Below are positions 16 to 49,749 of a stretch of 64,000 nucleotides of DNA, one piece after another. The stretch lies in assembly GCA_021371935.1 (NCBI GenBank), contig JAJFVF010000012.1, forward strand, positions 62,001 through 126,000. Direction: 5' to 3'. Below the pieces are notes generated by a model. It was not told the DNA's origin, did no database searches, and was given only the letters and a program-made list of their open reading frames with translations. The position numbers and the translations under genes were made by a program. How positions within the stretch are numbered: the first letter of the stretch is position 1; each line of letters begins with the position of its first letter. The DNA comes from a bacterium (GTDB lineage: Bacteria; Armatimonadota; UBA5829).

Positions 16-93
16 TAACCCGGATTATGCGCTTACCGCATAATCCGGATCTCTGTGAGCATTATTCACGTTTCTCGTGAATAATGCGGGCTA
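16..93. repeat. Twin-hairpin dispersed repeat, copy 1
   Basis: Two perfect 12-bp stems lie 10 nt apart: 20-31 with 37-48 (loop CTTAC) and 59-70 with 76-87 (loop TTTCT). The element begins TAACCCGG and ends GCGGGCTA. The final CTA is the complement of the TAG stop codon of the minus-strand barrel gene. Four further copies occur at 18083, 18846, 32574 and 53050. The shape resembles REP/BIME elements, but no RAYT-type transposase is in the window. Confidence 0.85.
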
Positions 94-2037
94 AAAACTC
101 AGCGCAGAAAACTCTACCCGGAAGCGTCTGCGCGACTGTGACCAGATGATTTGCGCTTGCTGCCTGCCAAGAGCTTTTGCAAGAGATATCTCGAAATCGG
201 AGTAATTGGAATCGGTGGAATCGGAACTGGCAAACTTCTGGAATAGGCTTTGTACGCTCAACCTCCAGGTTGGACGGATGGTGTAACCAAAGTCCCCAAA
301 CGCACTAATGGTTGAATCATCAAGACCGTAAGTCAGATTGATATTCGAACTCCATAGTTGAGATGGCCGTAAACTTAAGTTTGAGCTGAGCCTCTGAGCA
401 TTATAACCGCTTGTGGAATCAGCAAACGAATATGAGTAGTTGAGACCGAATGAACCTATATTACGCAGATTCCGAGAATATCCGGCGCTTGCATAGATAG
501 ATGTGCCGGGAGATGAACCTCCCCAACTGCGAAGGGTGGTTAGTGAAGTGTTGAGCGTACCTTGTCCGAACTTAATAGGCTTGCCGTAAAGCTGCAGCCC
601 TAAACCTCTGCCTATTTTTTCCCCCGAGTCAGAGCTAATGGCGCTGTTATATGTCAGTCTGGTGGTGAATGAATAAGACAGCGCACCGCCCATCATAGGC
701 TTTGCACGTGACTGAATGTACGCTGTCGAATAATATCTATCGTCGTTGTTGCGTAACATATTTCCACGCAGATTCCACGAGAAATTGTAGTTGCCAAGCG
801 ACCGGCTGTAGTCGACCGTCCCATAGAGATTTTTGTGAGAAGGAAAATCAAAATAAGTGTATAGGCGAGAATCGTTGTTGAATTCCCTTCTGTTACTCCA
901 GGACAATCCCCAATCACCAGAGGTTATTCGACTCACTTCAAACTTGCCTTCAGTCGATCCATCTGAGGTATATTCCTGATCGAGATCGAGCTGCCAGCCG
1001 GCATTGGAATAGTTATACTCGGTCGATTCACTGTGGCGCAGTCTGACCGAACCTGTGCCGTTGGGGGTTAAAGAATAGTATATCGGCAAATCCATCTGTA
1101 GACCATCGGTGCCATAAGTGAGCATCTGGCCCATTCCAGCACTTCGGTCGCTTAATGAAAGAACATGAAGAGGAACACTCAGAACCTTATCGCCTTCAAG
1201 ATAGAAGTTGGCGCGCTTTATCTTTACCTCTTCGCCCGGGCGGATAATTAGACTGCGCGCACGAACAAACATATTTGATTCCGCGACAGGCTCAAAATCA
1301 AATTTTATCTTTTCATCAGGCTTTGTATCCGGTTCGGTAAACATATCCCGTCCACGAAAGAGCAGCCTGTGAGCCCCGTCTTCAGCCGGAGTGATCAGCA
1401 CACCGCTCATCTTATCAAAACTGTAATACAAGATACTCGCAGCTATCTGCTTATCACCGCGTTTGATGACTATGTTATCTCCGCCTAAGCAGGCACGCGC
1501 ACGGAGAATGTTGTTCTTTGCATCTATCTGCGCCTCTTGGGCAGTGATACTCAGACCTCTGTGGCATATTGTGACCCCACCTGCGGCATCCACCTTTTTG
1601 GAACTGATATCATAACCAAGATACTTGCTGCTTGATACAGATATAAAAGACTCGTTGAACATCTCAGTGCCCGGCGCAAGAAAATCAACACTGATCTTGG
1701 CTATGGCTCTGCCATTTGAAGCTACTGCGGATATTAACGCCGTGCCAATAGTCGTGTCGCTCTGAAGCCGTACACGCGCTATCCCTGAAGTGGTCTGGGC
1801 ACTGTTTTCTATGACACCCAGACTTGTTGTGAACTCCACAAGCGTGCCATCCGGGACTGCGTCACCGTCTGAATCTCTCACGTCGGCGGTGATTGTGGTC
1901 GCGCTGAAAGAGTCGGCAACTATCGCCTGAGGCTGGGCGCGGAGTCGCATAGTGTAGTCATTGATGGCGGCATCCGCAGACACAGTGCTCAGGGCAAACA
2001 CAACTATTAAGGTCAGAATACACTTAACTTGCATCAT
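91..2037 (-). CDS. Big_1 domain plus OstA/LptD-like outer-membrane beta-barrel protein
   Basis: Probable outer-membrane protein, last gene of the secreted-protein operon. After a signal peptide (hydrophobic ILTLIVVFAL, cleavage near SADA), residues about 30-110 resemble an invasin-type Big_1 Ig domain (ITADVRDSDGDAVPDGT). Residues about 150-260 resemble the OstA/LptA fold. The rest is aromatic-rich amphipathic strands typical of LptD, including a stretch like the LptD barrel entry (LPIYYSLTPNGTGSVRLRH). The last residue is Phe, as the BAM machinery prefers. The Met at 2037 is chosen because it directly precedes the signal peptide; an upstream Met at 2070 is possible and neither has a strong SD. 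The LptD-like assignment is by pattern only. An alternative is an unrelated 16-26-strand porin with an Ig plug. Confidence 0.75.
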   Translation of the reverse strand: MMQVKCILTLIVVFALSTVSADAAINDYTMRLRAQPQAIVADSFSATTITADVRDSDGDAVPDGTLVEFTTSLGVIENSAQTTSGIARVRLQSDTTIGTALISAVASNGRAIAKISVDFLAPGTEMFNESFISVSSSKYLGYDISSKKVDAAGGVTICHRGLSITAQEAQIDAKNNILRARACLGGDNIVIKRGDKQIAASILYYSFDKMSGVLITPAEDGAHRLLFRGRDMFTEPDTKPDEKIKFDFEPVAESNMFVRARSLIIRPGEEVKIKRANFYLEGDKVLSVPLHVLSLSDRSAGMGQMLTYGTDGLQMDLPIYYSLTPNGTGSVRLRHSESTEYNYSNAGWQLDLDQEYTSDGSTEGKFEVSRITSGDWGLSWSNRREFNNDSRLYTYFDFPSHKNLYGTVDYSRSLGNYNFSWNLRGNMLRNNDDRYYSTAYIQSRAKPMMGGALSYSFTTRLTYNSAISSDSGEKIGRGLGLQLYGKPIKFGQGTLNTSLTTLRSWGGSSPGTSIYASAGYSRNLRNIGSFGLNYSYSFADSTSGYNAQRLSSNLSLRPSQLWSSNINLTYGLDDSTISAFGDFGYTIRPTWRLSVQSLFQKFASSDSTDSNYSDFEISLAKALGRQQAQIIWSQSRRRFRVEFSALSF

Positions 2038-2084
2038 GCCTGAGTCTGACAATTGGCCATAAATATGCATTAAGAAGCAGATAA

Positions 2085-2110
2085 AGCGCGCCGGGCTTAC
2101 CCGGCACGCT
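2085..2110 (-). terminator. Intra-operon hairpin before the barrel gene
   Basis: GC-rich inverted repeat, 11-bp arms with one mismatch and a four-base loop, between the CsgG-like gene and the barrel gene. It is followed in the minus direction by TTTATCTGCTTCTTA rather than a clean U-run, so it may attenuate or protect mRNA ends rather than fully terminate. Confidence 0.4.
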
Positions 2111-2146
2111 AATATTATAATCTTTTTAACCTACTCTGCTTCCAGC

Positions 2147-2872
2147 CTATCTTGCAGTCTGCACTGCAGGCATCGCTGCAGGAGCAGGCTCAGCCGATTT
2201 CTTTTCAGCAGTGGTATTGGAAGATGCATCGGGCGATGCTGCCTCCTCAAACAGTTGAGCCTTTAATTTGGCGATCACATCACCCGCCGCCAATGCCCGA
2301 GCATCTTCTTCCTCACTTGGAGATGACCCTTCGGGCGTGCGACCCGTCACAAGCAGAGTCTTAACCACTTTGCCGGTCTTTGTACTCATAATATTGACAG
2401 AGACGGTAAGCTGCGCAGATTTATGAGCGCCGTCAATCCGATAATCCTCCACTGAGCCTACAAGCAGGTAGTCAGCAGCCAATAACTTGGCCAACATCAG
2501 ACACTTGTTTGTATCAACCGTAAACGGACCAGTGGCATCATCGTCGTCCTTTATCTCTCCTTCATCTTTTGCTCTCTTTATTGGAGCCAAGCGATCAGTA
2601 TAGTAATACACCCAGTACTGATCGTTTTCGGACAGTATGGTGCGTAGCGCTGAGGCCATGTCATCACCGAAGTTTTCAGGTATTTTGCCCACACCAACGC
2701 TGTTGTCGAACGGGAATATTACAAGCGATCGTACGACAATCTCTTTTGACGCCTTCTTTTTGGACTTGAAGAGACCGAACAGTCCAGCATCTGCCGACCC
2801 TACTGCCGCTATGCCTAATATGAGCACCAGTCCGACAATCAGGCAAGAGAAATATCTATCTATCTTGATCAT
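2147..2872 (-). CDS. Exported CsgG/TolB-N-like periplasmic protein
   Basis: A 241-aa exported protein of unknown exact role. An N-terminal hydrophobic segment (CLIVGLVLILGIAAVGSADA) is followed by a basic patch (KSKKKASKE) and an alpha/beta domain that begins VRSLVIFPFDN and later has AKLLAADYLLVGSVEDYRI. That pattern, an oligomer-forming beta strand and then a strand reporting a calculated value for a system, is characteristic of the CsgG / TolB N-terminal / FlgO-type fold. The tail (residues about 205-241) is Ala/Ser/Pro-rich and probably disordered. The start is the ATG at 2872, 11 nt after GGAGG; the upstream in-frame TTG overlaps that SD. It sits between the giant Ig protein and the LptD-like barrel and shares its fold with the first gene of the operon, which suggests a role in assembling or exporting the surface proteins. 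Confidence 0.7.
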   Translation of the reverse strand: MIKIDRYFSCLIVGLVLILGIAAVGSADAGLFGLFKSKKKASKEIVVRSLVIFPFDNSVGVGKIPENFGDDMASALRTILSENDQYWVYYYTDRLAPIKRAKDEGEIKDDDDATGPFTVDTNKCLMLAKLLAADYLLVGSVEDYRIDGAHKSAQLTVSVNIMSTKTGKVVKTLLVTGRTPEGSSPSEEEDARALAAGDVIAKLKAQLFEEAASPDASSNTTAEKKSAEPAPAAMPAVQTAR

Positions 2873-2986
2873 GACAAAAAACAACCTCCAAGAGTGAGCA
2901 AATTTCTAATATGTCCACATAGACCCTGGCATGATAAATGGTAATATAACACATTACCACCTATCTACGCTCTCATTATAACACTA

Positions 2987-5900
2987 TTACAACTGTGGCT
3001 TCGGCGGCCTATCAAGCATATCTTCATCCATAAGATCAGTGGACTGCACAGACGAACGAAGCGAACTTACCGACGAAGTAGAAGATGACTCGCCGTTGTA
3101 ACTCGTATTCGGATCAATTATCAATGTGCAGTCGACAAACGCCTTTATCCAGTAGCCATACCACATCCTGAGCACACGTTCGGCACCACTGGCGGTGGCA
3201 TGGACAGGGGCATAATCGTAAGCAGAAGAATCCCAGCGCCATGCGCATTTTCGTATCCAACCCGCCGATGCTGCCTGGTCAAGCGTCTTCACAACGTTAA
3301 GATACTTGACTCGAAGCTCGCTGATCGGAATTCCAACGTCTTCTTTCGGCGTTATGACATTGCCGGATGAATCTTTCTTCCAGTTGGAGAAGATATTGCC
3401 GATCTGGTTCCAACCATTCTTTATTGAAATATAACAAGGAGCCAGTTCAGTCTCATTCGTTATTGAGTTTACCTGAGTATCATAAGCATCAGCAAAGACC
3501 TTTATTAGCCGATATTTCCTACTGAAATCAAATCCGACGTCGGGATTGCCAGACATTAATAAGCCGCTATTGACGTCATCACTGCTGATGGCCTCCTTAG
3601 GATAACTCGACTTCGGTTTGATCCAGACGGCTTCACCAGGCTCAAGACCCGGGAATGTGGTCGAAGCACCAAACCGATAATATGCCCCCAATTCGGGATA
3701 CCATCTGACAATCTGCATCAGAGACGCGTTATCATAACCGAATATATCACCGGGGTCGCTGCTGCAAATTACCATCGGCGGCGTAATCATATCCACAACA
3801 GGAGCGTCGGCCACTGAATCGTCAGGGTCTGTCGGGTCTGTTATCGCTATAGTTCGCTTCGGACCGCCTACACTGACAGTGTAGCTATCATTAATATTAT
3901 CAATCGTATCATCGGTTTCAACCTCGTTCCAACTCGTGCCGCCATTCCATGAGGCATTTAGTTTCCATACCCCACTGGCACACAGAGTGAGGCTCTCACC
4001 GGTTACCAGTGCTGAATCAATGCCGCTTGGATATGAAGACACACTCAGATCCCCTATCCAATTGGTATCGTCATAATCATTGACCTCAACTTTGCCTACC
4101 AATGATATCGTTGCCCCATCAGGTTTTGTGATCTCAATGGCAACATCACTGATTGTTTCCGGCTTGCTGGTGAGAGAATTAATCGGGAACAACATGTGTC
4201 CGACAATCAATACCTCATCGCCAACGGCAGCACTGGTTATACCATCGGCTGAATCTGGATCAGATGCGGATGCATCCACAAATCTCAAGTCCTCGATGAT
4301 GGGAACCAGCAGCACCGGGCCATTTTTGGAGCCTGGAGTTGCCGCACTATCGGTGCCGTCTGAAGCCTGTACCGTATAAGTGTGAGTGCCTGTTCCCAAA
4401 ATGGCTCCGGTGACCGACACACTATACTCTACACCTGCTGAAGCAGTATAGTCGGGCGTTGTCGAGGATGTCCGGGTCATTTTATATGTCCGTTGAGTTG
4501 ATAAGCCCTTGTCTATAACAAGTGTTAGACCCTCAGTCTTAGATGTGCCGGAACCGACCACAGGAGGATCGTTATTGACATCGCTATACCACGCCTTGTA
4601 GACGAATGTTTCACTCGTCTTGCCGGCTACCGGATTTACCAAATAATCGACAATCTTAGGAGCATCGTTGTTAATACGTACGACTAATCCACCCACATAT
4701 GTCAGCGGCGTCGCATCCTGGTATCCGTCGTTTGCTTCGAAGACAACATCGTATGTTCCTGGAAGAAGGTCGGTCATTGTCCCAACAAATACAGCACCAT
4801 TTGCATAAACAGGACTCGAACTTTGAGCAGACATTGAGACACTGTATGTCTCCGATGTCGATGTGTTTGTCAGCTTAACACTGACACTCGGCGTGGGTGC
4901 ACCGGTCGCAGAACCGTCGAGGTCCTTGTATGTCACTGTGAACTTGAATGTAGTCGCCTGCTGCCCGGAAGATGGATCAATCGACGCACTTGAGAGCGTA
5001 GGCAAATAGTTGACTGTTATAGTATAGTCGTCCGATGAGTTTTCGGGATACCTTACCTTATGATCCGGATCATAACCGTCAGAGGCCACGAAATGGTATG
5101 CCGTGGTCCCCTCCGGTAAGTCGTCAGTCGTCACCTTGAACTGCACTGGTGAAGTATAGTTCGTCGTAGTTGCTGCAGGCGCCATAGGCAAGCCCACTGT
5201 ATTGCTATCATTGTCGAATACAAGGCGCACATACCCGGCTAGACCATCATGATACGTCGGAGGATCGTTATCCGCATCCTTGTAATTAACTGTGAATGTC
5301 AGACTCTGCCCAGGCAGAATCGCACTCGTACTCTCATAAGTCTCATAATAAGTTACATACACGGGCGGCTCTGCATCCGCATTGGGAGTATACTCGATAT
5401 AAACCGAGGTGACACCGCTTGGAAGCTCCTGATCCAGTGTCAGCGTAGTAGCATCAGCAGCAGGACTGCCGGCGTAATAGTTCGTGCCGGACAGTTCAGC
5501 ATTGTCGTATACACCAATCACACTGTCAATGCAGCTAATTGAATCCGGCGTAACTACTGCAGGATCCGAACCCACACTCCCAAGTTGAACCAGCGTGGAA
5601 GGCACACTGCCTAACTCAGGCGAAAGAGATATCTCATTGCTTGTTGTAGAATCAAATGTCTGGCTCGTGTCATAATAGTTCGTGTCCGATTCGGTCGGAT
5701 TTGCATTCCAGTATACACCTGATACCTTTTCGCAGCTCTGCACTCCCTGCAATGACCAGTTCCCGGTCGAAGAGTAGTCCAGCTCAATCTTGCTGGAAGA
5801 GACAACTGTCGCTGCCTTTACACTTGCATCATATGAAATCCCTGCACCAGAGAGCTCTGGAGCCACATTTCCTGTGGGCGCTGTACTGGCCACAGTGGGA

Positions 5901-8900
5901 CCAGTGGCACTTGTTCCATCCGTCGGATATTGCGCCTTGGATGAGTAAGGCACCCAGGACTTACCGGCATCTGTCTCAGCATCAATCAACCACTGCGGCT
6001 TGTCGACTCTGCTGCGCGCCGTGAACCTGTATTGGTGGCTCCCAACACCCAGCTTCGGCACTGTCAACTGATAAAGGCTGCCGGCAGAAAATGCATTTGT
6101 GTCCTGCCTTACCATCAACAGACCGTTTATCGTGAATGTTGAACCGGACGCGAGATTATCGCCGCCTGTACCTAAATTGGCGGTTGTTAGAGTCAGCGTA
6201 TTTGATGTGTTGGTCGAAATCAGATATGTGCGGTATTTCAATGTTCCACTGGTGATCTGTACCAGCTTGTCCGCAAACTCATTATCTGTCCAATCCGGGC
6301 TTGTGCCGTCTATATTCGTCGCCACAATCGTCCGCATCTTGCCCGTCTCAAGTGGATCGGCACTCAGACCGGAAACCTTACCCAGAACTAAAGTATCTTT
6401 GCCGTCACCGTCTATCCACAACCGCGGAGAACCAGATACATCTTGGCCTATGTATTTGCCTGTGCTGTCGACATCAGTAGTCGAGTTAAAGAAATACGGT
6501 GTGTCGTTGTCGGCATCCGTATATGTAACGGCAAACGTCACAGTCGTGGCAGACGTTATCGTCGAATCCTCGCCAGGTGTGGCGCTCCCATCAGAAAGAA
6601 CGGGTGCAGTGTTGATATAAGGACCGTCAAGATTGATATATGACGCTTCACTGGAATCGGTCGGTCGGTCAATACTATTCTCCGTGTAATAATCATATAT
6701 CGCAACATCGCTGCCGTCACAAGCCTCGAAACGATACTTGTGACTGCCTGAACCCAGGTCGCTTGCAGCGGCCGTGTAGGTATAGACCGCTCCATCTCTA
6801 TATGGAGGAGTCCCATCGCCGTCGTAACTCATGCCATGTGCAACATTGTCTATATATACACGCACATAAGAAGGAGCCTGACCATTTGATCCATCGGTGT
6901 CCCTATATGTGACCGTATACACGAACTGCTGGCTGGATGACTCAGTCGAAACCGGGGATAAGCTGCCGTCTTCAAGTGTCGGAGCCGTGTTGGCACCCAC
7001 TGTTGTCGACATCTTTGTCCCGAAGAGATAAGTGGCGCTTACTGTGTCTGTCGGTGCACTCAGAAATTCTAGGATACGATTCCATCGGTCAATCTGGTAA
7101 TCACCCAACTGATAATAACGTGCCCACATCGAAATGGTACCTGTAGGCGCTGAATAAGTAAGCTCCACGTGAGATGGGTTGTTCTCACTTGTCGACCTGA
7201 ATGGGTCAAAATAGCTTAAGCTGTCGCTGTCATCAGTCCATACACCCAGCACACCCGCTGTCGGGTCGCCGTCATTCCCGTAGCCGTCGTTGCCCTTCAT
7301 GTGGACTGTATCTCCACCCGCATCCTGTTCTTCCCAACCGGCAGGTGAAAAATGTGTCGTGCCCTGGGTCCAGTTGTAAGGACTGTCCTCCTCCTGCTGC
7401 TGCGCAGCACCGTCTATCTTATGCGTAAACCGAACATCGGAATACTTGATGAACACCGTCTGCCCCGCTGTCGGGACAGGATCCGTCAGCCATATCAGCG
7501 AGTCGCCGGTACTGTACATCGTCCGCGTATAATATATATAGACCTTTGACCCGAGAGGTTGAGCATCACTATCAGAAAGAACGATCTTGCCGCTTGTATC
7601 CAGACTAAGGCCAGAATTGGTAATCAGGTTCATATCCTCATCATATATGGCCGTTGGAGTCTTTATCAATCTCGGAGAACTCGGTATTATTGTCTTTCCT
7701 GTCCTGTTGACCTGATCGTATACCTCGGAGGGGTCGATGACACCCTCCATGGCGCTGTCTACACTGTTCGGAACACTTATAGACGCGGTCGAATCGTAAT
7801 AGGAAGCACTCGAGTCTGTGACATCTTCCAGTGAAGCATATACACCCTCCACACTGGCGATCACAGATGGGTCCTCAGGTCTCACATATATGGTCGATGC
7901 CTTTCCATCGGAATTGACTGCAGTTCCCATCATAATGGAGTAACGTTCGTCTCCATCATCCACTCTTTGCCAACCGTTCTTCATGTCATCGACAAGCTTT
8001 TTGATGTCACCATCGTATACTTGAGCGTCTGATATAAGAGTGCCCGTGCCCGATGTAGTGTCAAGAAGAGGACCGACTATTGGGGCCTCAGGTACATATT
8101 TCAGCCAGACAATTTTTGTATTTGTCGGCAGGCCTGTACCTACATTCAAGATAATCCATTCATCACCCGTCTTAAAGGCAGGGCTCGCTGTAGCCGCATT
8201 ATAATAGTTCGTGCCTGTAAGGTCCTCTGTGAGATAGACGCCTTGCAAATCAAGTATTATATTTGGATCGTTGGGCGCTACCTTGGTCAGAGTGGAATCA
8301 GGAGTCCCTTGCTGCGCAACAACAGGCTCGAACGCATAACGCAGGCCGCCAAGCGAAGTCAGTTCTTCGCCCTCTATGCAACTTGCGGCATTCGATCTCA
8401 ACTCCGCATTGGAAGAAGACTTGTACGTAGCATACTCAAATCCATCTTGGAAGAGAAACGCATAATAGTACTGCTTTGCCTGGTCGTATTCGTTTTCAAT
8501 GCCGCCGAGCCTGGTCTGATAATAGAACTGCACACCGTTGCTGTACTTCGTGTCGGCGGTGTCATACTGAAGCATATCATGACCTTCATCCCAAAGGACT
8601 GTTTCACCATCGGGCTGAAGAAGACCCATGAATACCTTCTTGACCGCCGGCGGGTCGCTGTCAACGTCTTTATAGGTCGCATTGAATGTCCATAGAGTGG
8701 CTCCATTACTTGTCCCGTCAGCAGAATCGATACTGCCGTCATATAATATCGGCGCGGTGTTGTCTTTTACGGTAAGATTGGATATCCAACTCGTCGTTAC
8801 AGTCTCACCCTCAACTGTGTCATCTGTGCCTACCTGGCGACCCCAATCGTCAACGAACTCGAACTTGTATTTGCGGGTGCCGTTCTCAAGTTCGGAACTT

Positions 8901-11536
8901 GACAGATTATAGTAGTAATAAACACCAGCCTTATATTGCGCAGAATTGTTTGCCGACGAACTGAGCAATACCTCGGGCAACATATTGCATACACGCTGAG
9001 TGCCTGCGGAGTCTGTCTGGATTATCAACCTGGCTGCATACGGCCTCTGGCCATCTGCATCAGAATATTTGACTCTGAACTTGAATATCTGACCACGCTT
9101 GCCGCTGGTCGGAGAAACACTGTCATCGGCAACAGTCAAAACCGGAGCATTATTGACATATGGACCCGGCACAAAATCGTTGTTGTCGTAGTCGGGATTC
9201 GGAATCGTGTTACCCTCATCATCCGTGATGAAACACTCATCTGAAGTGCTTTCAGTGGGTACCCACCAGTCGTCCCACGTCCTGCTTAGATAATCGTAAT
9301 GGTCGGGACGCCGCGGCCAAATGATCGTCTGATTATCGTCACTTGCCTCAAAGAAGTAGTGGTACGGACCTGGTGTTGTGAAGTTCTTTGTCACCGTATA
9401 CCATACACCATCAGTGAAGTCAAAATCCGATGGGTCCTCTTTGTCCATCTCGATACTCATCGGATAAGTGTTGCCTTCCACATAATCATTTAGTGTAAGA
9501 GAACCACGGCTGCTGGTATTACCAATCATAAGTCGCACATGCGTCGGACTAGAACCGTTGCTTGACTTGTACATGATCCGGAAAGTGCACTGAGAACTCG
9601 TTGTCGCGCCGGCAGTCTCTGCACGGCGAGCGGCGATCTCCCGTTGGTAAGAAGTACCGGTGTATGTGCCGTCCATCAGGGGGTTCATAGCACGCTTGAA
9701 CGAACCATCCATCAGCAACGTGCCATAGTAGCGCCCACCACCATACTTAGTCAAATCTCTATAGCTGACAATATCATCATCCCAAAGCGGCATAGTCAGC
9801 GCACCGTAAACAGATGGATGCTGTGTCGAAGGATACTGATAAGTTGAACCAAACTTGCCCGGCACAAACACGGGGCGATCGACATATATAGTCGAATCGA
9901 ACGCATATCTGTTATCCGTGCTATAGCTGCGATGCGCGGAACGTTTGATGTCGGGATTGCCGGTCACATCACGCGCATTCATCGGGTCGAGGGCATTATT
10001 GTTGGCAAAGCCCTGCACTGTCGTATAATCAGGTGGACAAGAATATGTCAGCCCGCTATCATTTCGACCCCAAGGAACATAACCCCATATGGAATCGGTC
10101 GCTTCAGATGGAACCTCTGTCCAGTCAATCGTGCTGCACACATATTGAAGATACTGTGTATGCCTGTAATCTGTGAAGCCTGTCGGTATGTTCCAACTAT
10201 AGCCCGGATTGGGCTCTACACCCCACTCCGTGAGATTCGGCTGCATTTCAAGTAAGAGATTAGGCACATCAGGCGTATAATTCAGCGTGTCCAGCGGGTC
10301 CTCATTGAAATTGTACCTGAGCCAGTCATCACTACATGCAAAGAAATAGTTGAACGTGCCTACGGGCAGCGCATTGTACGCCCAGCAGGAATAGGCGGGG
10401 AAATACTTTGCTATATATTCTTCACCCAGCGGTTTTGCCATCCCATCGTTAGGCATTAAGTGAGCTACGAATACGACGCCACTGGTATAGTCCTGAGAGG
10501 TCCAAGCTGCATCATGCTCTATGCCCTCCTCCGGCATCATTGGTATCAGGCGATAGTCGCCTATTCCAAAAACGTCGAGATAGAGCGCAACACCATAATC
10601 GGCGTCTTCCGCATAGTCGTGAGGTGAATTATGATAGGTATGCCACCAAGCCTGGGGCGGCAGACCATCTCTGTTGTGGTATTTGACCCGGAAAACATAG
10701 TCATGGCTTGCAGAACCGTCATCGCTTACAATTCCACTGCCGTCATCGCTTGGCTCAACTGTCAAGGGATCGGGATCTTCAGGACCACCCGCACTCAGAT
10801 AATCTCTGTCACCCTGGTTGCCGCCGTAGTCTATCATCTCGGGAACTAAATCACCCGCAGAATTGTATTGATCATTCGGACGGCTGTCGCTTATAGTTAC
10901 TGTTACATCTTCTGATTTTGTGGTTTCTTCATTCCATTCCCCATCTTTGTTGCAATACCATGCAAATGCCTTTACAGTGATCTCACGCTTAATGCCATTA
11001 CCGTAGGCAATAAGATTGGGACCATACCACATCGGAGCCAATGTATATGCATCCCAAAGCAGATTGTTATAACTGTAACTCGGATACCAGGAATACGGAT
11101 CGGTCTCATTGGGGCTCGTCAGATATTTGTATATGGGATTAGTACTTGAGCCCGTCCAGTAACCCGGATGCTGATAATAAGTCCTCGACATATTCAAACC
11201 GGCACTCGCCGTAACCAAGTAACGTGCACCAGTGCCGTCATTGGGAGTGTGGTCTTGATAATACATAGGGATCCCACCGAGAATTGGGTCCGAATATCCC
11301 AGACCGGTCAGCACAACCATACCCGGTGTATTCATTCTCTGGCCAGATACCACATTCGGATAAATGCCGTTACTCTCTGTCCATGTGGCTCTGAACGTAA
11401 ATATAGAGTTGGATGTGCCGTGCTGCGGCGATACCTCAAGCTTAAGACCCTGCGCACCCACATTTGAGAGAGCCAAGAAGCCAAAGGCAAATATTATTAT
11501 CGTTAACTTGAAAGCACGTTTCCAAATATTACTCAT
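2987..11536 (-). CDS. Giant secreted protein of tandem Ig-like repeats with shared C-terminal module
   Basis: A 2849-aa secreted protein, probably a long surface filament or adhesin. It starts with a signal peptide (KLTIIIFAFGFLALSNVGAQG) at the ATG at 11536, which has AAGGA nine bases upstream; the open frame extends 20 codons further but lacks an SD. At least nine roughly 100-aa Ig-like units follow, each with a core like FxFxVxYxDxDGxxP, a short V-x-I-D strand and a closing GxHxYxFxAxDG. Between them lies a second repeat type of the form GVYxxxxLTGTNYY with a following IxYTP. The last 250 residues carry the window's shared C-terminal module (GWNQIGN near 3388-3413, then YGYWIKA), followed by a Ser-rich tail. 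Seventh-kilobase-scale size, low Lys/Arg and high Asp/Thr/Ser/Tyr fit an extracellular protein. No catalytic motif was seen. Confidence 0.85.
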   Translation of the reverse strand: MSNIWKRAFKLTIIIFAFGFLALSNVGAQGLKLEVSPQHGTSNSIFTFRATWTESNGIYPNVVSGQRMNTPGMVVLTGLGYSDPILGGIPMYYQDHTPNDGTGARYLVTASAGLNMSRTYYQHPGYWTGSSTNPIYKYLTSPNETDPYSWYPSYSYNNLLWDAYTLAPMWYGPNLIAYGNGIKREITVKAFAWYCNKDGEWNEETTKSEDVTVTISDSRPNDQYNSAGDLVPEMIDYGGNQGDRDYLSAGGPEDPDPLTVEPSDDGSGIVSDDGSASHDYVFRVKYHNRDGLPPQAWWHTYHNSPHDYAEDADYGVALYLDVFGIGDYRLIPMMPEEGIEHDAAWTSQDYTSGVVFVAHLMPNDGMAKPLGEEYIAKYFPAYSCWAYNALPVGTFNYFFACSDDWLRYNFNEDPLDTLNYTPDVPNLLLEMQPNLTEWGVEPNPGYSWNIPTGFTDYRHTQYLQYVCSTIDWTEVPSEATDSIWGYVPWGRNDSGLTYSCPPDYTTVQGFANNNALDPMNARDVTGNPDIKRSAHRSYSTDNRYAFDSTIYVDRPVFVPGKFGSTYQYPSTQHPSVYGALTMPLWDDDIVSYRDLTKYGGGRYYGTLLMDGSFKRAMNPLMDGTYTGTSYQREIAARRAETAGATTSSQCTFRIMYKSSNGSSPTHVRLMIGNTSSRGSLTLNDYVEGNTYPMSIEMDKEDPSDFDFTDGVWYTVTKNFTTPGPYHYFFEASDDNQTIIWPRRPDHYDYLSRTWDDWWVPTESTSDECFITDDEGNTIPNPDYDNNDFVPGPYVNNAPVLTVADDSVSPTSGKRGQIFKFRVKYSDADGQRPYAARLIIQTDSAGTQRVCNMLPEVLLSSSANNSAQYKAGVYYYYNLSSSELENGTRKYKFEFVDDWGRQVGTDDTVEGETVTTSWISNLTVKDNTAPILYDGSIDSADGTSNGATLWTFNATYKDVDSDPPAVKKVFMGLLQPDGETVLWDEGHDMLQYDTADTKYSNGVQFYYQTRLGGIENEYDQAKQYYYAFLFQDGFEYATYKSSSNAELRSNAASCIEGEELTSLGGLRYAFEPVVAQQGTPDSTLTKVAPNDPNIILDLQGVYLTEDLTGTNYYNAATASPAFKTGDEWIILNVGTGLPTNTKIVWLKYVPEAPIVGPLLDTTSGTGTLISDAQVYDGDIKKLVDDMKNGWQRVDDGDERYSIMMGTAVNSDGKASTIYVRPEDPSVIASVEGVYASLEDVTDSSASYYDSTASISVPNSVDSAMEGVIDPSEVYDQVNRTGKTIIPSSPRLIKTPTAIYDEDMNLITNSGLSLDTSGKIVLSDSDAQPLGSKVYIYYTRTMYSTGDSLIWLTDPVPTAGQTVFIKYSDVRFTHKIDGAAQQQEEDSPYNWTQGTTHFSPAGWEEQDAGGDTVHMKGNDGYGNDGDPTAGVLGVWTDDSDSLSYFDPFRSTSENNPSHVELTYSAPTGTISMWARYYQLGDYQIDRWNRILEFLSAPTDTVSATYLFGTKMSTTVGANTAPTLEDGSLSPVSTESSSQQFVYTVTYRDTDGSNGQAPSYVRVYIDNVAHGMSYDGDGTPPYRDGAVYTYTAAASDLGSGSHKYRFEACDGSDVAIYDYYTENSIDRPTDSSEASYINLDGPYINTAPVLSDGSATPGEDSTITSATTVTFAVTYTDADNDTPYFFNSTTDVDSTGKYIGQDVSGSPRLWIDGDGKDTLVLGKVSGLSADPLETGKMRTIVATNIDGTSPDWTDNEFADKLVQITSGTLKYRTYLISTNTSNTLTLTTANLGTGGDNLASGSTFTINGLLMVRQDTNAFSAGSLYQLTVPKLGVGSHQYRFTARSRVDKPQWLIDAETDAGKSWVPYSSKAQYPTDGTSATGPTVASTAPTGNVAPELSGAGISYDASVKAATVVSSSKIELDYSSTGNWSLQGVQSCEKVSGVYWNANPTESDTNYYDTSQTFDSTTSNEISLSPELGSVPSTLVQLGSVGSDPAVVTPDSISCIDSVIGVYDNAELSGTNYYAGSPAADATTLTLDQELPSGVTSVYIEYTPNADAEPPVYVTYYETYESTSAILPGQSLTFTVNYKDADNDPPTYHDGLAGYVRLVFDNDSNTVGLPMAPAATTTNYTSPVQFKVTTDDLPEGTTAYHFVASDGYDPDHKVRYPENSSDDYTITVNYLPTLSSASIDPSSGQQATTFKFTVTYKDLDGSATGAPTPSVSVKLTNTSTSETYSVSMSAQSSSPVYANGAVFVGTMTDLLPGTYDVVFEANDGYQDATPLTYVGGLVVRINNDAPKIVDYLVNPVAGKTSETFVYKAWYSDVNNDPPVVGSGTSKTEGLTLVIDKGLSTQRTYKMTRTSSTTPDYTASAGVEYSVSVTGAILGTGTHTYTVQASDGTDSAATPGSKNGPVLLVPIIEDLRFVDASASDPDSADGITSAAVGDEVLIVGHMLFPINSLTSKPETISDVAIEITKPDGATISLVGKVEVNDYDDTNWIGDLSVSSYPSGIDSALVTGESLTLCASGVWKLNASWNGGTSWNEVETDDTIDNINDSYTVSVGGPKRTIAITDPTDPDDSVADAPVVDMITPPMVICSSDPGDIFGYDNASLMQIVRWYPELGAYYRFGASTTFPGLEPGEAVWIKPKSSYPKEAISSDDVNSGLLMSGNPDVGFDFSRKYRLIKVFADAYDTQVNSITNETELAPCYISIKNGWNQIGNIFSNWKKDSSGNVITPKEDVGIPISELRVKYLNVVKTLDQAASAGWIRKCAWRWDSSAYDYAPVHATASGAERVLRMWYGYWIKAFVDCTLIIDPNTSYNGESSSTSSVSSLRSSVQSTDLMDEDMLDRPPKPQL

Positions 11537-11599
11537 CTGCGGTTTTCCTTCCAAACTCCATCCATCATTCAGCACAAGCTGATAGTATAAGGGCATTAT

Positions 11600-13618
11600 C
11601 TAGTATCCGCCGCTCAAGGACGTGACTCCTGAATCAGGGAAAATTGCCGGCCTGAAAATCAGCGTGACCGGAGTCTTTGCACGAACCCAATATCCATTCC
11701 ACGGCACCAGCATTTCATCATTTGCGCTGAGTGTCTCATAGGAAGATGTATCGAGACTCCATCCATATATAGTCTTGCTGAGCCACCCCTTCTTGACAGC
11801 GTCCTCATACGAATAAGATGTATTTGTTGTCTTGTTGTAAACCATTAGCTGCCCGATATACACTGGGTAGACGAACGGATTGCCGATCATGTTCCAGCCC
11901 TTCGATAGCTCTATGTCCTGCTCTTTATACTGCTTGCCGTAATATTCACCAACAATAGCCGCATCTTCAGCAAGAGAATATGTTTGCTGGCCGCCTCTGC
12001 CCAAACTGTAGACATTAACCCAAAATGCCTTACCCGGCTCCAATTGGGACAGCGTGACATATTCCTTCGCATCGAGATCATATGAGACGGCCTTATATCC
12101 AGACGTAAGCCCAAAAGCATGCTCAAAAGTGGGATTGTTGAACTCGAACGGAACACTGACCATCTGATAGCCATAGCGAAGTACGGCCTTCTTAGCAGCA
12201 GGAACCATAATGGTACGCGTGACTGTCTGACTCCAGCCGCTCTCATCACTGAAAACCACGTAATATTCCAACTCACCACAGTATTCACCAGTCGGCTTAA
12301 CAGACCAAGTCACAACATCCGACTCAGAATTGGTCGGCACATCTCCAATTTCCTGTTTAGCTGTTGAACCTGAAGCAAGCTCAAGACCATCAGGTAAGTA
12401 AAGATATGCTGAAACATCTTCTAAATTATATGGACCGGAGTCCATTGTCGTATTGTAAACATACGCACTGATTGTGAATGGATCCGGAGTAATATCAACG
12501 AGGTTAACATCGGGATCAGTGCTGTCGTATTTAAGTGAGCTTGGCCCCTGAACAGCCGCAGTTACAGAGTCCCGGACAACTTTGGTGCCGGACTTATATG
12601 TCCACTTTTCCGATGCAGCACCTATGCCGTAATATGTGACATATGTGCGTGAAGCTCCGGCGGCAAGAGACTTCTGTTTCCACTCAATCAGACAGCATGG
12701 AGCATCAAGTGCCACTAAAGGGTCAGGTGAATAACTATCCGGCAGCCATGTGGATGTCATGATAAGACCGCCGCTTTCCCATTCACCCACGGCTACATAG
12801 TCTGGCACAGTGGAATCCTGCTCATCAAAGGTGAATCTGGTTACCCTCTCCGGAGAATCCACACTGTCGTAGAACTCAATCCTTTCGGGAACCTTTGTCC
12901 CTGAGAAAATGGTCCCAGGAAATGAATCCGATACGCCATTGGCACGTGTCATTCCAATGCCCTCAACATATGGATATGCATGCAAAGAACTGTTGGTAAC
13001 CTTTGGAATGCCAAACATACCCAATCCTATGGACTGAGTTGTGGTAGCCTTGTTGGTAATCGTCAGAGCATAACGTATCTGGTCACGCACAAGACTGATA
13101 TTAATCTTGACAGCGACTGGTGTGGTGCCGGCTGTAAGCCATTCACCCTCAATGTAGGGACCACCAGGCCCAAGTGTGGTGCCGACAATCGGTGTATCGT
13201 ATTTTTTGGGTTCAGTGGACCAGGAACCACTGCCGTCACTGCCTGCACCAATCAGCACCGGCGTATTGTCGCCAACCTTGACCTTCCAATAACCCAAGGG
13301 ACCAAACGGATATGATCCCCAGGGAGTCATCTCCGCGTTGTCGTCATCGGTGGTCTCGGGATCGCCCATTATAGACATTGCCGAATAACGACCGGCTACT
13401 TCCCATTCAGTCGAATCACCATCCGTATCATACACTGTTACAGTGCCGTCGATACCGATATACGCTTCCACATAGTCGTTTGAAAGTGACATAGCGGAGT
13501 AATCATCAGATAACTCTATATAGATAATCGCGTCATATGCCCATGCAGCCGACCATGACCCTATGAAAATTGTCAGCACAAACAAGATCATGGATAATAT
13601 CGCTCTTGTATTATTCAT
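11600..13618 (-). CDS. Secreted protein with shared C-terminal module
   Basis: A 672-aa exported protein of unknown function. The signal peptide ends near AAWAYD. The first 330 residues are beta-rich and open with repeated motifs (IELSDDYSAMSLSNDYVEAYIG); this may be a carbohydrate- or surface-binding domain, but I do not recognise a family. A CARDB/Ig-like segment follows at about 340-460 (PFTISAYVYNTTMDSGPYNLEDV). The C-terminal 200 residues are the shared module: YGYQMVSVPFEF, PGKAFWVNVY, LSKGWNMIGNPF and WNGYWVRAKTPVTLIF. The start at 13618 has AAGGAGAT nine bases upstream. It lies 46 nt downstream of the protease gene and 63 nt upstream of the giant-protein start, so all are probably co-transcribed. 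Confidence 0.85.
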   Translation of the reverse strand: MNNTRAILSMILFVLTIFIGSWSAAWAYDAIIYIELSDDYSAMSLSNDYVEAYIGIDGTVTVYDTDGDSTEWEVAGRYSAMSIMGDPETTDDDNAEMTPWGSYPFGPLGYWKVKVGDNTPVLIGAGSDGSGSWSTEPKKYDTPIVGTTLGPGGPYIEGEWLTAGTTPVAVKINISLVRDQIRYALTITNKATTTQSIGLGMFGIPKVTNSSLHAYPYVEGIGMTRANGVSDSFPGTIFSGTKVPERIEFYDSVDSPERVTRFTFDEQDSTVPDYVAVGEWESGGLIMTSTWLPDSYSPDPLVALDAPCCLIEWKQKSLAAGASRTYVTYYGIGAASEKWTYKSGTKVVRDSVTAAVQGPSSLKYDSTDPDVNLVDITPDPFTISAYVYNTTMDSGPYNLEDVSAYLYLPDGLELASGSTAKQEIGDVPTNSESDVVTWSVKPTGEYCGELEYYVVFSDESGWSQTVTRTIMVPAAKKAVLRYGYQMVSVPFEFNNPTFEHAFGLTSGYKAVSYDLDAKEYVTLSQLEPGKAFWVNVYSLGRGGQQTYSLAEDAAIVGEYYGKQYKEQDIELSKGWNMIGNPFVYPVYIGQLMVYNKTTNTSYSYEDAVKKGWLSKTIYGWSLDTSSYETLSANDEMLVPWNGYWVRAKTPVTLIFRPAIFPDSGVTSLSGGY

Positions 13619-13664
13619 CTATAATATCTCCTTACGTCCTCAGTGAAAAATCATCAATTGCGAT

Positions 13665-15956
13665 CTACGGCAAAATTGTCATCTCAAGGGAGTCGCTTGA
13701 AGTTACTCCACCAACCCTGGCATAGAGCCAATACCCCATATATGCATCAAGCGCATCACGATTTGAAAGTTTGTGGTAGCCACGGCTCGGTGTCTGGGTG
13801 TAGTAATAAACACTTGAACCTATCCAGCCGGCAGCCTGAGCATCCGCCAGAGTTTTCGTTATGCCCTTATATGTAAAAAATGCATTGCTCCATGAAACCT
13901 GCTTGTCATATGGATTGCCGAACATGTTCCAGCCTTTGTAGAGACTAATGTTGTATGCATCACTTTCTAGAACTGCTGAATATGCACTGTTTAATACAAC
14001 TTCCTGGTTGCTCGGCACCATAAGCCAAAAACCTGTACCAACCGGAAATGAATAGACACCAGAACTCTGATTGTAACTGCCGCCCGTATACCAACTATAG
14101 CTGGAATTGGAATCAAGTGGATTTTCCCATGCAAGCACGTTATCAGGATAATATAAGTAGCCCGCTCCAGATGCTATGGTAGTCTTCGGAGACCAGCGTG
14201 CCAGACGGACTCGTAACTTGCTCGTATCCGCAAAATTCGCGGATTCTCCATCCGCAGTAAGAAATAGATTCTCCGGCAATGCCGTCATCGTTAAGGCCCC
14301 ATCACTATCGAAATGGGCAAAGTTGTAAGGAAGAGATATTAAGTATAGACCAGAAGAAAAAGTTGTGGACGCAACTGAAAAAACTGCCCAGTCAGAATAT
14401 ATCTGCCCACCAGCTGTTGACGAAGCCCTAACATAAATTGAATGGTCGCCCGCACTCAAAGGACTCTGCGTTGATGAATCCAATGGCCATGTGGCGGTAA
14501 TGATGCCGGCACTGATGTTGGAGCTGTCCAAAATAACATATGACGTATCGGTTAGGTCGTCAGGAACTCCATTCTCGTCAGTGTCAGGATAGTCCAAATA
14601 AACCTTGACGGATGAAGTATCAACATTGGTCAGAGATATCTTGAACGTCGGTCTGCTGGAAACAGTGCCACCCGCGCTGGGCTGAAGAATCTGTACACCG
14701 CCATAAGTCAGAGCCGCCTTCACATCCAACACACCAGCACCATATTTATTCGGGTCCAGCGCACCAGTCTTTGGAGGACGAGCAGACTTCAATAGTCTGT
14801 CTGTCACTTCGCTCGCAGGAATACCGTAACTCAAAAGGATCGCTGCTGCACCAGCTACATGGGGGCATGCATACGATGTACCTGCACCAAAATATCCATA
14901 GTAATAATAATACTCACCAGTGTCATCATCTATCGAAAAGACTGTGCTGTAGATCTGATCTGCCGTACTTGTACTATCATCCCCACCGGGAGCAGCAATG
15001 TCGATTGTTGAACCGTAGTTGGAATAGTAAGCCAGACTCTCATCAGGACCTAAAGCAGATACTGAAATAACTCCGTCGCATGAGGCTGGATAACTCGGTA
15101 GATTTGTCTCTTCGTTTCCAGCGGCTGCAACCAGAATTACACCGGCTGCATATAACTTCTTCATCATCTCATCTGTGGCAGCATCATCTCCATAACTGCC
15201 ATAGCTCATATTTAACACGTCCACACCCTGATCCAAAGCATATTGCTCGGCTTCAAGAAGAACGTCCGTATCCGCAGAACTACCTTCAAAAGCCCGGATG
15301 GGCACAATCTGCACGTTGTCCCAGCATACACCCACGACACCCTTATCGTTGTCACCTTGGGCTGCTATGATCCCGGAAACAAAAGTGCCATGACCATGCA
15401 AATCATTGCTGGGGTCACTATCATCATCCACAAAGTCATAGCCACTCGATATTCTGCCTTCCAGGTCAGGATGATTTGCTACGCCCGTATCGATTACACC
15501 TACTCGAACCGACTCGACACCCTTCTCAATATTCCAGGCATCCGGCATATTTATCATTTCCATGCCCCACTGGTTCTCATAGCCGGGATCATTCGGAACT
15601 GTACAGAGTGTGTAGACATAGTTTGGCTGAATGTGATCGACTGCCCACGTCACGGCTAACCTGGAACTAAGTGATGAACGACTCCGTGAAGATATTCTGG
15701 AAGTCCGACCCATCTTTATGTGATACATGCCGGACAATGGAAGCTCTTTTACAATTGAAGCTCCCATATTGTCCACAAGCATTTCGACTGCAGAGGAACT
15801 GGTTCCCGATTGCACGTTGATGATATACTCGTTGGGTACATAGTTATAGTTCCCCGCATCCGCTGCTGAAACAATGCCAAAGCACAGTCCAAGCAGGACC
15901 ACTAGCTTCAATCCAAGCAGCGACTCCTTATTCAACCGACATGCATGCGGTCTCAT
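13665..15956 (-). CDS. Subtilisin-family (S8) secreted serine protease with shared C-terminal module
   Basis: A 763-aa exported endopeptidase. Signal peptide at residues about 14-35, then an I9-like propeptide (YIINVQSGTSSSAVEMLV). The S8 catalytic domain has Asp156 (VIDTG), His189 (HGHGTFVSG), oxyanion Asn281 (AAAGNEE) and Ser361 (GTSYACPHVAG). An Ig-like domain spans about 415-530. Residues about 545-763 are the shared module (LYKGWNMFGNPY near 13911-13934 and GYWLYAR). The start has GAGGAGG eight bases upstream. As the only protease among the module-bearing proteins of this operon, it could process its neighbours, much as PorU-type peptidases act in other systems; that is inference. It is also plausible as a stand-alone nutrient protease. 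Confidence 0.92.
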   Translation of the reverse strand: MRPHACRLNKESLLGLKLVVLLGLCFGIVSAADAGNYNYVPNEYIINVQSGTSSSAVEMLVDNMGASIVKELPLSGMYHIKMGRTSRISSRSRSSLSSRLAVTWAVDHIQPNYVYTLCTVPNDPGYENQWGMEMINMPDAWNIEKGVESVRVGVIDTGVANHPDLEGRISSGYDFVDDDSDPSNDLHGHGTFVSGIIAAQGDNDKGVVGVCWDNVQIVPIRAFEGSSADTDVLLEAEQYALDQGVDVLNMSYGSYGDDAATDEMMKKLYAAGVILVAAAGNEETNLPSYPASCDGVISVSALGPDESLAYYSNYGSTIDIAAPGGDDSTSTADQIYSTVFSIDDDTGEYYYYYGYFGAGTSYACPHVAGAAAILLSYGIPASEVTDRLLKSARPPKTGALDPNKYGAGVLDVKAALTYGGVQILQPSAGGTVSSRPTFKISLTNVDTSSVKVYLDYPDTDENGVPDDLTDTSYVILDSSNISAGIITATWPLDSSTQSPLSAGDHSIYVRASSTAGGQIYSDWAVFSVASTTFSSGLYLISLPYNFAHFDSDGALTMTALPENLFLTADGESANFADTSKLRVRLARWSPKTTIASGAGYLYYPDNVLAWENPLDSNSSYSWYTGGSYNQSSGVYSFPVGTGFWLMVPSNQEVVLNSAYSAVLESDAYNISLYKGWNMFGNPYDKQVSWSNAFFTYKGITKTLADAQAAGWIGSSVYYYTQTPSRGYHKLSNRDALDAYMGYWLYARVGGVTSSDSLEMTILP

Positions 15957-15995
15957 TCTCCAATCCTCCTCAAAATCTATACAGCAACTGCCTAA

Positions 15996-16021
15996 GGGCG
16001 GTGATATTCATATCACCGCCC
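15996..16021 (-). terminator. Intra-operon hairpin
   Basis: A perfect 11-bp stem with loop TTCA lies between the CsgG/FlgT-like gene and the protease gene. There is no U-run after it in the minus direction, so it more likely stabilises an mRNA end or attenuates than terminates. Confidence 0.45.
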
Positions 16022-16043
16022 ACATCCGAAACCCAAAACTATG

Positions 16044-17873
16044 CTATTCCGTACTCGGCTCCTCAGGCGGCAGTGAGCTGATCTCAAACCTGTTTTGCTC
16101 GCCCTCATACCAACCGTTACCCGTATCCGCCTCGTGTCTGCAATATACGGTCCAACCCATAACTACACCCGAATAGTCTTCGAGCGCAGCAGCCAAACTG
16201 ATCCGCTGGGAATCTGTGAGCGAAACAGTCGGACCTGTTTCACTAATAACGCTCGAAGTCCATGTCGGACCTTGCCCGGCTACTACAGGCGCAACCACCA
16301 CATAATATGAATCAGCACCGTCCTTGCGGTTCCATTCGAGGTTTATAGTGCCATCCTGAAGATCACTGATCTGAAGCTCAGGAGCCGCATCGGAACTGGA
16401 ATAAGCAGGAGAAATAACATCGCTGTTTAGTACCGGCTCAATTACGGTTGCGGTTAAAGTATTACTCACCTTGGTAAGGTAATACCAGGTGGTAGTAGTG
16501 TCATCATCGTCATCGTCATCGTCGTCATCATCGTCATCATCGTCACCTATTGTCGAGTGTGACGTCATCTTATAAAACGCACGTATCTGATATGTATGAG
16601 TTTTGCCATATGGCTCGACTGCTACAGTTGTGCTCTGCGAAGCATATGTCTGAGATGGATTAGTGTCCAGCGAATAATAGTTTACTGCAAGATCACTACC
16701 ACTGCCGTATAGACCAGCAATACTCGTCCGACCGGAATCCATTGAACCGGAATCGCGCATGACCTTTACAGGAGCTTCTGAATCAGCAAAACTGTCCCTT
16801 ATGACCTGGTATTCCATCACGTTTTTGCCATTATCCAACGCACTCGCATCCCAGGAAATAACAGTCGGGTCTGTGAGACTGATGCTCGGAGCATCCTCCG
16901 TGCCACGCCCGCCCTTGAACAAAGACACAACTCCAAAAACAAGAGCAGCACCTAAAAGGAACTTCCCTATCTTGCTGATTGCGCTGCCCTTAGTCTTGCT
17001 TTGTGTAGGTGCCCCCGAAGGCAATGCCTGTGTCCTGGCTGCTCCGCCCACGGCAGGCATATCGAAAATTGCTCTCGCCTTGTCTTGCGCCTGGATACCA
17101 CGCATGGATTTGGTCACCTTTGCGATACTGTCTACAGGAGTTACAGATTGAATCGAGAGGTATCCGATAATCTCCCTGTCGCGCAGAACTATCATTTGCA
17201 TGCCCTGCTTTATACCGTCACGAGAACCCTTGTTAAGCATTACCTGGCTGGCACCCATGCTGTTTTGAACCGTGGCCTCAGGAATGATGTAATCCACCAT
17301 CGTCTTGACGCCCAGAAATGCGGCATTATTAATCGCCTCGACTATGAGAGCGTCATCATCAGGAGTATAGCCAACCCTTGCGCTCGAATTGCCAGTCTGT
17401 ACTGCACCATTTACAATCTCGCCGGACGCTTGATCGTACATTCGCAGAACCATGGTCACGGATGCTCTTCTCGTGACACCGGAACCCGCAAGTTGAACAG
17501 AGGTGATCGCACCCTCAAGCATCGCATCGGCACTCAAATACTCACCCAGCCTCACAAGACCTACCTTGTCAAGCGGAGAATGCAGATCAAGCGCCTCCAT
17601 TGCTGTCTTGATGCTCGCACGAGTGTTACTGCCGACATCAAAGCGGGTTGTTTTGCTCATTTCCACGACAACCGCGTCGGTTGCAAGCCTGGCAAGCAAA
17701 TCACCCTGAACACCGGACTCGTTCATAAACTCAACAACTGCGACTGAATATTGGGGCATAAGCTGAGCCTCTGCCCGATTTGATAGCGGCAGGGGCCCTA
17801 TTGTCGCCACAAGCGTTACTATTATTGCGTAGCACACACTCTTGAAAACCCTGCATTCTATTAGCTGCCTCAA
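16044..17873 (-). CDS. CsgG/FlgT-like exported protein with Fn3-like domains and poly-Asp linker
   Basis: A 609-aa envelope protein, first gene of the operon. Signal peptide (YAIIVTLVATIGPLPL, cleavage near AEAQ), then a CsgG/TolB-N-like domain (YSVAVVEFMNESG to LSADAMLEGAITSVQ, residues about 41-130) and a FlgT C-terminal-like domain (VMLNKGSRDGIKQGM to QDKARAIFDM, about 205-275). A hydrophobic segment (KIGKFLLGAALVFGVVSLF, about 295-315) could anchor it. Two Fn3-like domains follow, separated by fifteen consecutive Asp at residues about 444-458, ending EEPSTE. The start is TTG at 17873, ten bases after GGGAGG. CsgG and FlgT relatives form rings at the outer membrane, so this protein and its smaller relative at 2147-2872 could build a pore or collar for the module-bearing proteins (inference). 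Confidence 0.8.
   Translation of the reverse strand: MRQLIECRVFKSVCYAIIVTLVATIGPLPLSNRAEAQLMPQYSVAVVEFMNESGVQGDLLARLATDAVVVEMSKTTRFDVGSNTRASIKTAMEALDLHSPLDKVGLVRLGEYLSADAMLEGAITSVQLAGSGVTRRASVTMVLRMYDQASGEIVNGAVQTGNSSARVGYTPDDDALIVEAINNAAFLGVKTMVDYIIPEATVQNSMGASQVMLNKGSRDGIKQGMQMIVLRDREIIGYLSIQSVTPVDSIAKVTKSMRGIQAQDKARAIFDMPAVGGAARTQALPSGAPTQSKTKGSAISKIGKFLLGAALVFGVVSLFKGGRGTEDAPSISLTDPTVISWDASALDNGKNVMEYQVIRDSFADSEAPVKVMRDSGSMDSGRTSIAGLYGSGSDLAVNYYSLDTNPSQTYASQSTTVAVEPYGKTHTYQIRAFYKMTSHSTIGDDDDDDDDDDDDDDDTTTTWYYLTKVSNTLTATVIEPVLNSDVISPAYSSSDAAPELQISDLQDGTINLEWNRKDGADSYYVVVAPVVAGQGPTWTSSVISETGPTVSLTDSQRISLAAALEDYSGVVMGWTVYCRHEADTGNGWYEGEQNRFEISSLPPEEPSTE
16500..16544 (-). repeat. 15-codon Asp run in mixed GAT/GAC codons
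   Basis: Fifteen consecutive Asp codons use GAC and GAT irregularly. This argues for selection on an acidic, possibly calcium-binding linker rather than pure replication slippage. It separates two Fn3-like domains. Confidence 0.9.
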
Positions 17874-23982: not shown

Positions 23983-23997
23983 TTTGCATATGCCCAA

Positions 23998-24025
23998 ACG
24001 ACCGGGCATATGGAATCCCGGTCGT
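23998..24025 (-). terminator. Hairpin overlapping a stop codon
   Basis: A perfect 9-bp stem (ACGACCGGG with CCCGGTCGT, 10-nt loop) begins at the stop codon of the upstream exported protein. In the minus direction it is followed by TTTGGG, a weak terminator at best. Confidence 0.35.
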
Positions 24026-49624: not shown

Positions 49625-49749
49625 CTCTTTTCTCCACCTCTCGGATCGGCAAATCTTGGCCAAACCGATGCAAAACAACTTGTTATGAATAATTCGATAC
49701 AAACTATAAACTTATTCCGCCATATTTATATGCTGCTATAGCTGATTGC
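49625..49749 (-). promoter_or_regulatory. Leader of the papain-like protease gene, no gene seen
   Basis: About 120 nt between promoter and start, AT-rich, no obvious hairpin. The rest of the gap (49780-50002) also shows nothing except a short palindrome TCGGATGATATCCGA near 49942. Confidence 0.3.

Follow-up and report, generated by a model that had tools for sequence, protein, structure and literature searches.

Four exported proteins encoded in a 64-kb stretch of an Armatimonadota genome (the window) end with the same module, here called the GWN/GYW module. It is a real, unnamed family that spans archaea and bacteria, and it is built from two tandem copies of one unit. We tentatively read it as a docking domain that would retain proteins at the cell surface after their export. 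The four carriers are a giant protein (P0001), a 672-aa protein, p672 (P0002), a subtilase (P0003) and a papain-family protease (P0004). The first three belong to a six-gene cluster described below. Carriers and modules are located as follows:

2987..11596, minus strand: giant exported protein, 2869 aa, cluster gene 4, module carrier; no Pfam domain, assigned by synteny
3098..3805, minus strand: module of the giant; two units, then a 36-aa tail; profile match, E 1e-52
11600..13618, minus strand: p672, 672 aa, cluster gene 3, module carrier; N-terminal domain without Pfam or PDB match
11639..12181, minus strand: module of p672, followed by a 13-aa tail; profile match
13665..15956, minus strand: subtilase (PF00082), cluster gene 2, module carrier; Pfam, synteny
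13668..14357, minus strand: module of the subtilase; long insert in the first unit, runs to the stop; profile match
44645..49702, minus strand: papain C1, lectin-like and NHL protein, module carrier outside the cluster; Pfam scan
44648..45196, minus strand: module of the papain-family protease, runs to the stop; profile match, AlphaFold2 model of pLDDT (predicted local distance difference test) 69

Four C-termini form one homologous module

The original prediction held that four secreted proteins of the window share a C-terminal module, and the open reading frames (ORFs) and motif positions were as it gave them. Pairwise BLASTP between the four C-termini yielded E values of 1e-5 to 1e-10, at an overall identity between module copies that is low (20-30%). 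When each C-terminus in turn was left out, a profile of the other three recovered it in all four cases (E 7e-12 to 5e-15). The next-best ORF of the window scored approximately 0.4-4, with the exception of ORF 28059-28373 (minus strand) at 7e-4. The N-terminal parts of the carriers had no mutual BLAST similarity at E<1e-3, which agrees with the earlier claim that they differ entirely. These results confirm that the four C-termini are one homologous module and not a chance likeness.

The conserved blocks read MITPP, GEAVW, GWNQIGN, AGWI and GYWIKA in the giant; MVSVP, GKAFW, GWNMIGN, KGWL and GYWVRA in p672; and LISLP, GTGFW, GWNMFGN, AGWI and GYWLYA in the subtilase. The papain-family protease has MVSLP, GRGFW, GWNLIGQ and AYWMKA, and its W block is missing (GLYV). 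The motif at 44909-44932 of this protein is GWNLIGQP (residues 1591-1598). The giant had been labelled an Ig protein, which we could not verify: a Pfam scan gave no domain.

Two tandem units and a predicted compact fold

The module had been described as roughly 200 residues long. Its size is about 170-235 residues, and it is really composed of two tandem homologous units (GWN..IG.P ... GxGYW). The first half carries [LMY][IV]S[LV]P ... GxGFW and the second GWNxIGNPF ... GYWxxA. Profile-profile comparison of the two halves gave a probability of 95.8% with the Armatimonadota set and 97.8% with the cross-phylum set, and an unrelated neighbouring domain used as control scored <1%. The two units are repeats with nearly the same sequence in one protein from Methanophagales. 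The AlphaFold2 model of the Methanophagales copy (pLDDT 90; predicted template modelling score, pTM, 0.85) predicts a compact fold in which the order beta-beta-alpha-beta-beta-beta-beta occurs twice. The model of the copy in the window's papain-family protease was poorer (pLDDT 69, pTM 0.68).

Foldseek searches of the models against PDB and BFVD (viral) returned no match at E<=1e-3, none of the Pfam and NCBIfam profiles matched the module, and a PDB sequence search gave chance matches only (E 0.06 or worse). Because fold, Pfam, NCBIfam and PDB-sequence searches all failed to match, the module likely lacks a known fold, as judged from one prediction and the libraries searched. A literature search on the motif string and on C-terminal domains in Armatimonadota and Methanomassiliicoccales found no description of it.

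The module is widespread and strongly C-terminal

Genome contigs were searched with a profile from a four-row alignment, an eight-row alignment being too divergent. The module was found in 59/61 related Armatimonadota genomes, at 1 to 21 copies each, and also in archaea, Nitrospirae, Eremiobacterota, Bacteroidetes and Ignavibacteriales. No relative was detected in the viral contigs scanned, at the sensitivity used. The genome of the window holds eight copies: the four described above, a fifth that ends a 3007-aa protein, a sixth that stands alone behind a signal peptide, and two internal ones. The proposition that the module is always C-terminal is rejected, 2/8 copies being internal. On contig C14 of this genome (L007, L008), each internal module is preceded by one further domain, which has a small gene of its own on contig C2, adjoining the stand-alone module gene.

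We examined 143 distinct Armatimonadota copies from fetched loci, a sample biased towards the six-gene cluster and module matches. Eighty of them end <=70 aa from the stop and 56 lie directly before a conserved tail, so that 136/143 are terminal or directly pre-tail; four are internal and three run off the contig. Approximately 50 copies outside the cluster have like positions, mostly 0-5 aa from the stop. Two Methanomassiliicoccales genomes gave 41 and 34 module matches. In the named genomes from which the archaeal statistics were drawn, 54/56 copies end 0-11 aa from the stop. Nearly all modules of the Methanomassiliicoccales loci (L168-L207) are C-terminal, many of them on NosD/beta-helix proteins. 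The module is promiscuous and strongly C-terminal.

Carriers look exported and are otherwise unrelated

Signal-peptide-like N-termini were assigned to 115/120 Armatimonadota carriers and 35/40 archaeal carriers by a lax heuristic. The N-terminal partners include peptidases (S8, C1, C39-like and pro-kumamolisin-type) as well as GHL10, polysaccharide deacetylase, RCC1, VWA, NosD/beta-helix, CARDB/transglutaminase and Big_7 domains. About 15 proteins of 219-292 aa consist of little beyond a signal peptide and the module. The carriers thus look exported, and export appears to be the sole feature that the partners have in common.

Two variations concern the partners. An orthologue of the subtilase (L067:961-4017, L068:1284-4340) has a carbohydrate-binding-like insert immediately ahead of the module's final strand (DVTLIIPP). 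The window also encodes, at 22342-24009, a GHL10 glycoside hydrolase-like protein with DUF4985 that lacks the module, in contrast to other GHL10 proteins of the phylum.

Comparison with known sorting and anchoring systems

The C-terminal sorting domain of the type IX secretion system (T9SS; Por_Secre_tail, PF18962, or CHU_C) is likewise a promiscuous C-terminal domain on unrelated exported proteins. Neither Por_Secre_tail nor CHU_C matched P0001-P0004 in Pfam searches. SprA (PF14349) was found in 0/61 Armatimonadota genomes, that of the window included, and the same search succeeded in three T9SS genomes (L016, L019, L024) used as positive control. In T9SS genomes, a Por_Secre_tail match, in some cases below the Pfam cut-off, followed the module in 10/10 scanned carriers, and also in L019. 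The module is thus a separate domain upstream of the real tail, not the last domain, and we reject the view that it is a T9SS tail.

PEP-CTERM is a C-terminal feature on many exported proteins as well, and the genome of the window has two exosortase copies. However, PEP-CTERM is a short tripartite tag, whereas the module folds into a domain of about 180 aa. Among 136 C-termini of module carriers we found no PEP motif, no transmembrane helix and no basic end, and transmembrane-like stretches were present in 0/136, which excludes the module as a PEP-CTERM tag. The exosortase serves other proteins, such as the product of a PEP-CTERM gene that adjoins a stand-alone module gene. This arrangement occurs in five genomes of the window's family (L134:1666-3442; L118, L125, L126, L130), and the two genes are a possible partner pair. 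Tags such as LPXTG (sortase), MYXO-CTERM, GlyGly-CTERM and PGF-CTERM belong to the function class first proposed for the module. None of the 136 C-termini had an LPxTG or PGF motif followed by a transmembrane segment after the module, and one chance motif match was seen; an LPXTG-type tag was rejected on this ground.

In most Armatimonadota families the module is followed by a tail of 230-290 aa, made of a conserved beta-sandwich-like stretch and FlgD_ig. This tail (A7) is a common C-terminal region on the same proteins, directly after the module. It is nevertheless a separate domain: hhalign of both module halves against the FlgD_ig and tail profiles gave a probability <1%, and in the window's family (f1) the tail is essentially lost, with weak matches only, while the module is retained. 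The loss affects all cluster proteins at once (examples of the tail: L069:11059-11841, L074:5863-6675).

SLH domains are non-covalent surface-attachment domains that are repeated, folded and placed terminally on many exported proteins with no other relationship. The module resembles them in being repeated, folded and terminal on unrelated exported proteins, and it too can occur alone. The folds are unlike as far as Foldseek shows, and neither SLH nor other known surface-binding families of Pfam and NCBIfam matched the module.

Proposed role and alternatives

Judging from sequence features, we favour, with some hesitation, the reading that the module is a folded, non-covalent domain for surface retention or docking after export; docking and its partner are what we infer. 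The module would be a folded extracellular domain of two tandem beta-beta-alpha-beta-beta-beta-beta units, positioned at the C-terminal end of Sec-exported proteins or adjacent to it. Acting after export, it would dock its protein, by non-covalent contacts, to a partner on the surface, either a glycan or a second protein, and so hold diverse enzymes and giant structural proteins on the cell envelope, or build them into it. Where a dedicated tail is present (T9SS in Bacteroidota; beta-sandwich and FlgD_ig in most Armatimonadota), the module would directly precede that tail; archaea and the window's family have no tail, and there the module itself would be the end of the protein.

Our data demonstrate homology, duplication, position, spread, partner variety and the absence of known sorting features. 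Since archaea and diderm bacteria both have the module, it does not depend on one bacterial secretion machine. Docking or retention is, in our view, the best explanation because the module is folded, promiscuous and C-terminal-proximal, occurs in both archaea and diderms, is also found on its own and is combined with dedicated tails. The 41 and 34 archaeal copies are as expected of a shared localisation domain, and the stand-alone proteins are more readily explained by a binding domain than by a tag. Several points weigh on the other side. No receptor or ligand was identified, and the fold searches (PDB, BFVD) gave no match that informs function. The two internal copies in the genome of the window lie in giant beta-helix-type proteins, and the signal-peptide heuristic was also positive in 164/414 background ORFs. 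Moreover, a purely structural role, as a stalk or cap, would give the same positions.

In such a role the module, having no specific partner, would be a stable spacer that shields the C-terminus or raises the functional domains above the surface. It would account for a compact, duplicated (predicted) fold that is always near the C-terminus and is stacked beside anchoring tails in T9SS bacteria and Armatimonadota. Nevertheless, proteins consisting of a signal peptide and the module leave nothing to cap or lift, and the strict motif conservation between archaea and bacteria suggests more than a spacer; we consider this role rather improbable. An aromatic-rich domain resembling a lectin or a carbohydrate-binding module (CBM), which would attach enzymes to an external polymer and not to the cell, could explain the conserved W and Y residues and the several carbohydrate-active partners (GHL10, polysaccharide deacetylase). 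However, proteases, RCC1 and VWA proteins and giant repeat proteins make up many of the partners, a CBM has no need of the C-terminal site that the module takes in almost every protein across archaea and bacteria, and the fold search of the PDB gave no CBM or lectin above threshold. Polymer binding is therefore an unlikely function.

The original prediction was that the module is an anchor or a sorting domain, and its two halves fared differently. A true C-terminal sorting signal for a dedicated translocon, here possibly the LptD-like barrel of the cluster, would agree with a location that is strictly C-terminal both among archaea and within the window's family, and with the encoding of three carriers beside an outer-membrane barrel in many genomes. 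Yet T9SS species sort via another tail, downstream of the module; the largest copy numbers are in archaea, which have no outer membrane; most Armatimonadota families have a tail of 230-290 aa after the module; and internal (2/8) and stand-alone (~15 proteins) copies exist. We therefore regard sorting as quite doubtful. An anchor is plausible for a promiscuous, strongly C-terminal domain on exported carriers. No known domain with a non-sorting function matched the module either, so that an anchor stays a candidate role. Finally, convergent or low-complexity likeness with no real domain would agree with the low identity between copies, but it is ruled out for practical purposes by the leave-one-out E values, the genome-wide specificity, the cross-phylum profile matches and the confident model.

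The module ends 34-41 exported proteins in some archaeal genomes and is present in nearly every Armatimonadota genome checked. Despite this spread, it has no Pfam or NCBIfam name and no match among solved structures. Giving it a name would supply an annotation for the C-termini of a great many exported proteins now listed as 'hypothetical'. The module would also provide a direct test of how archaea, and diderms without T9SS or LPXTG, retain large exported proteins on their surface.

Three carriers belong to a conserved six-gene cluster

The subtilase, p672 and the giant are genes 2-4 of a cluster at 91-17873 of the window, a finding additional to the original prediction. The other three genes are without the module:

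16044..17873, minus strand: LpoB-like exported protein, cluster gene 1; PF13036, E 5e-6; synteny
2147..2884, minus strand: small LpoB/CsgG-like protein, cluster gene 5; weak PF13036 and CsgG matches; synteny
91..2070, minus strand: invasin/Big_1 Ig and LptD-like outer-membrane barrel, cluster gene 6; PF09134, E 9e-10; profile matches to invasin and LptD

The order (LpoB-like, subtilase, p672, giant, small LpoB/CsgG-like, invasin-Ig and LptD-like barrel) is kept wholly or partly across many Armatimonadota families, including Chthonomonas and Fimbriimonas, and the giant gene or the subtilase is absent from the cluster in some families. The barrel profile was found in 146/151 and the p672 domain in 128/151 Armatimonadota genomes. 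Of the 119 genomes, mostly drafts, for which both were listed, 78 had the two on a single contig at most 30 kb apart, with a median of 3.9 kb. The cluster is thus a concrete, phylum-wide locus for a partner search.

From its gene content, the cluster may have a role in envelope or surface assembly. A bolder proposition is that the unnamed fold is a general C-terminal surface-retention domain of archaea and bacteria with dozens of clients per genome, and that the core clients of Armatimonadota, the subtilase, p672 and the giant, encoded with the LptD-like outer-membrane barrel found throughout the phylum and with LpoB/CsgG-like partners, represent an undescribed surface-assembly system. We regard this as a long shot.

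The gene 6 profile matched invasin (1cwv, E 3e-8) and LptD (7omm, E 6e-7). The invasin D3/Big_1 Ig domain is N-terminal in this protein and is fused to the LptD-like region, and by sequence the protein may be the LptD of Armatimonadota or a paralogue. Its profile has up to nine matches in some genomes and seven in the genome of the window. The LpoB-like protein (16044-17873) has a run of ~16 aspartates in its C-terminal part.

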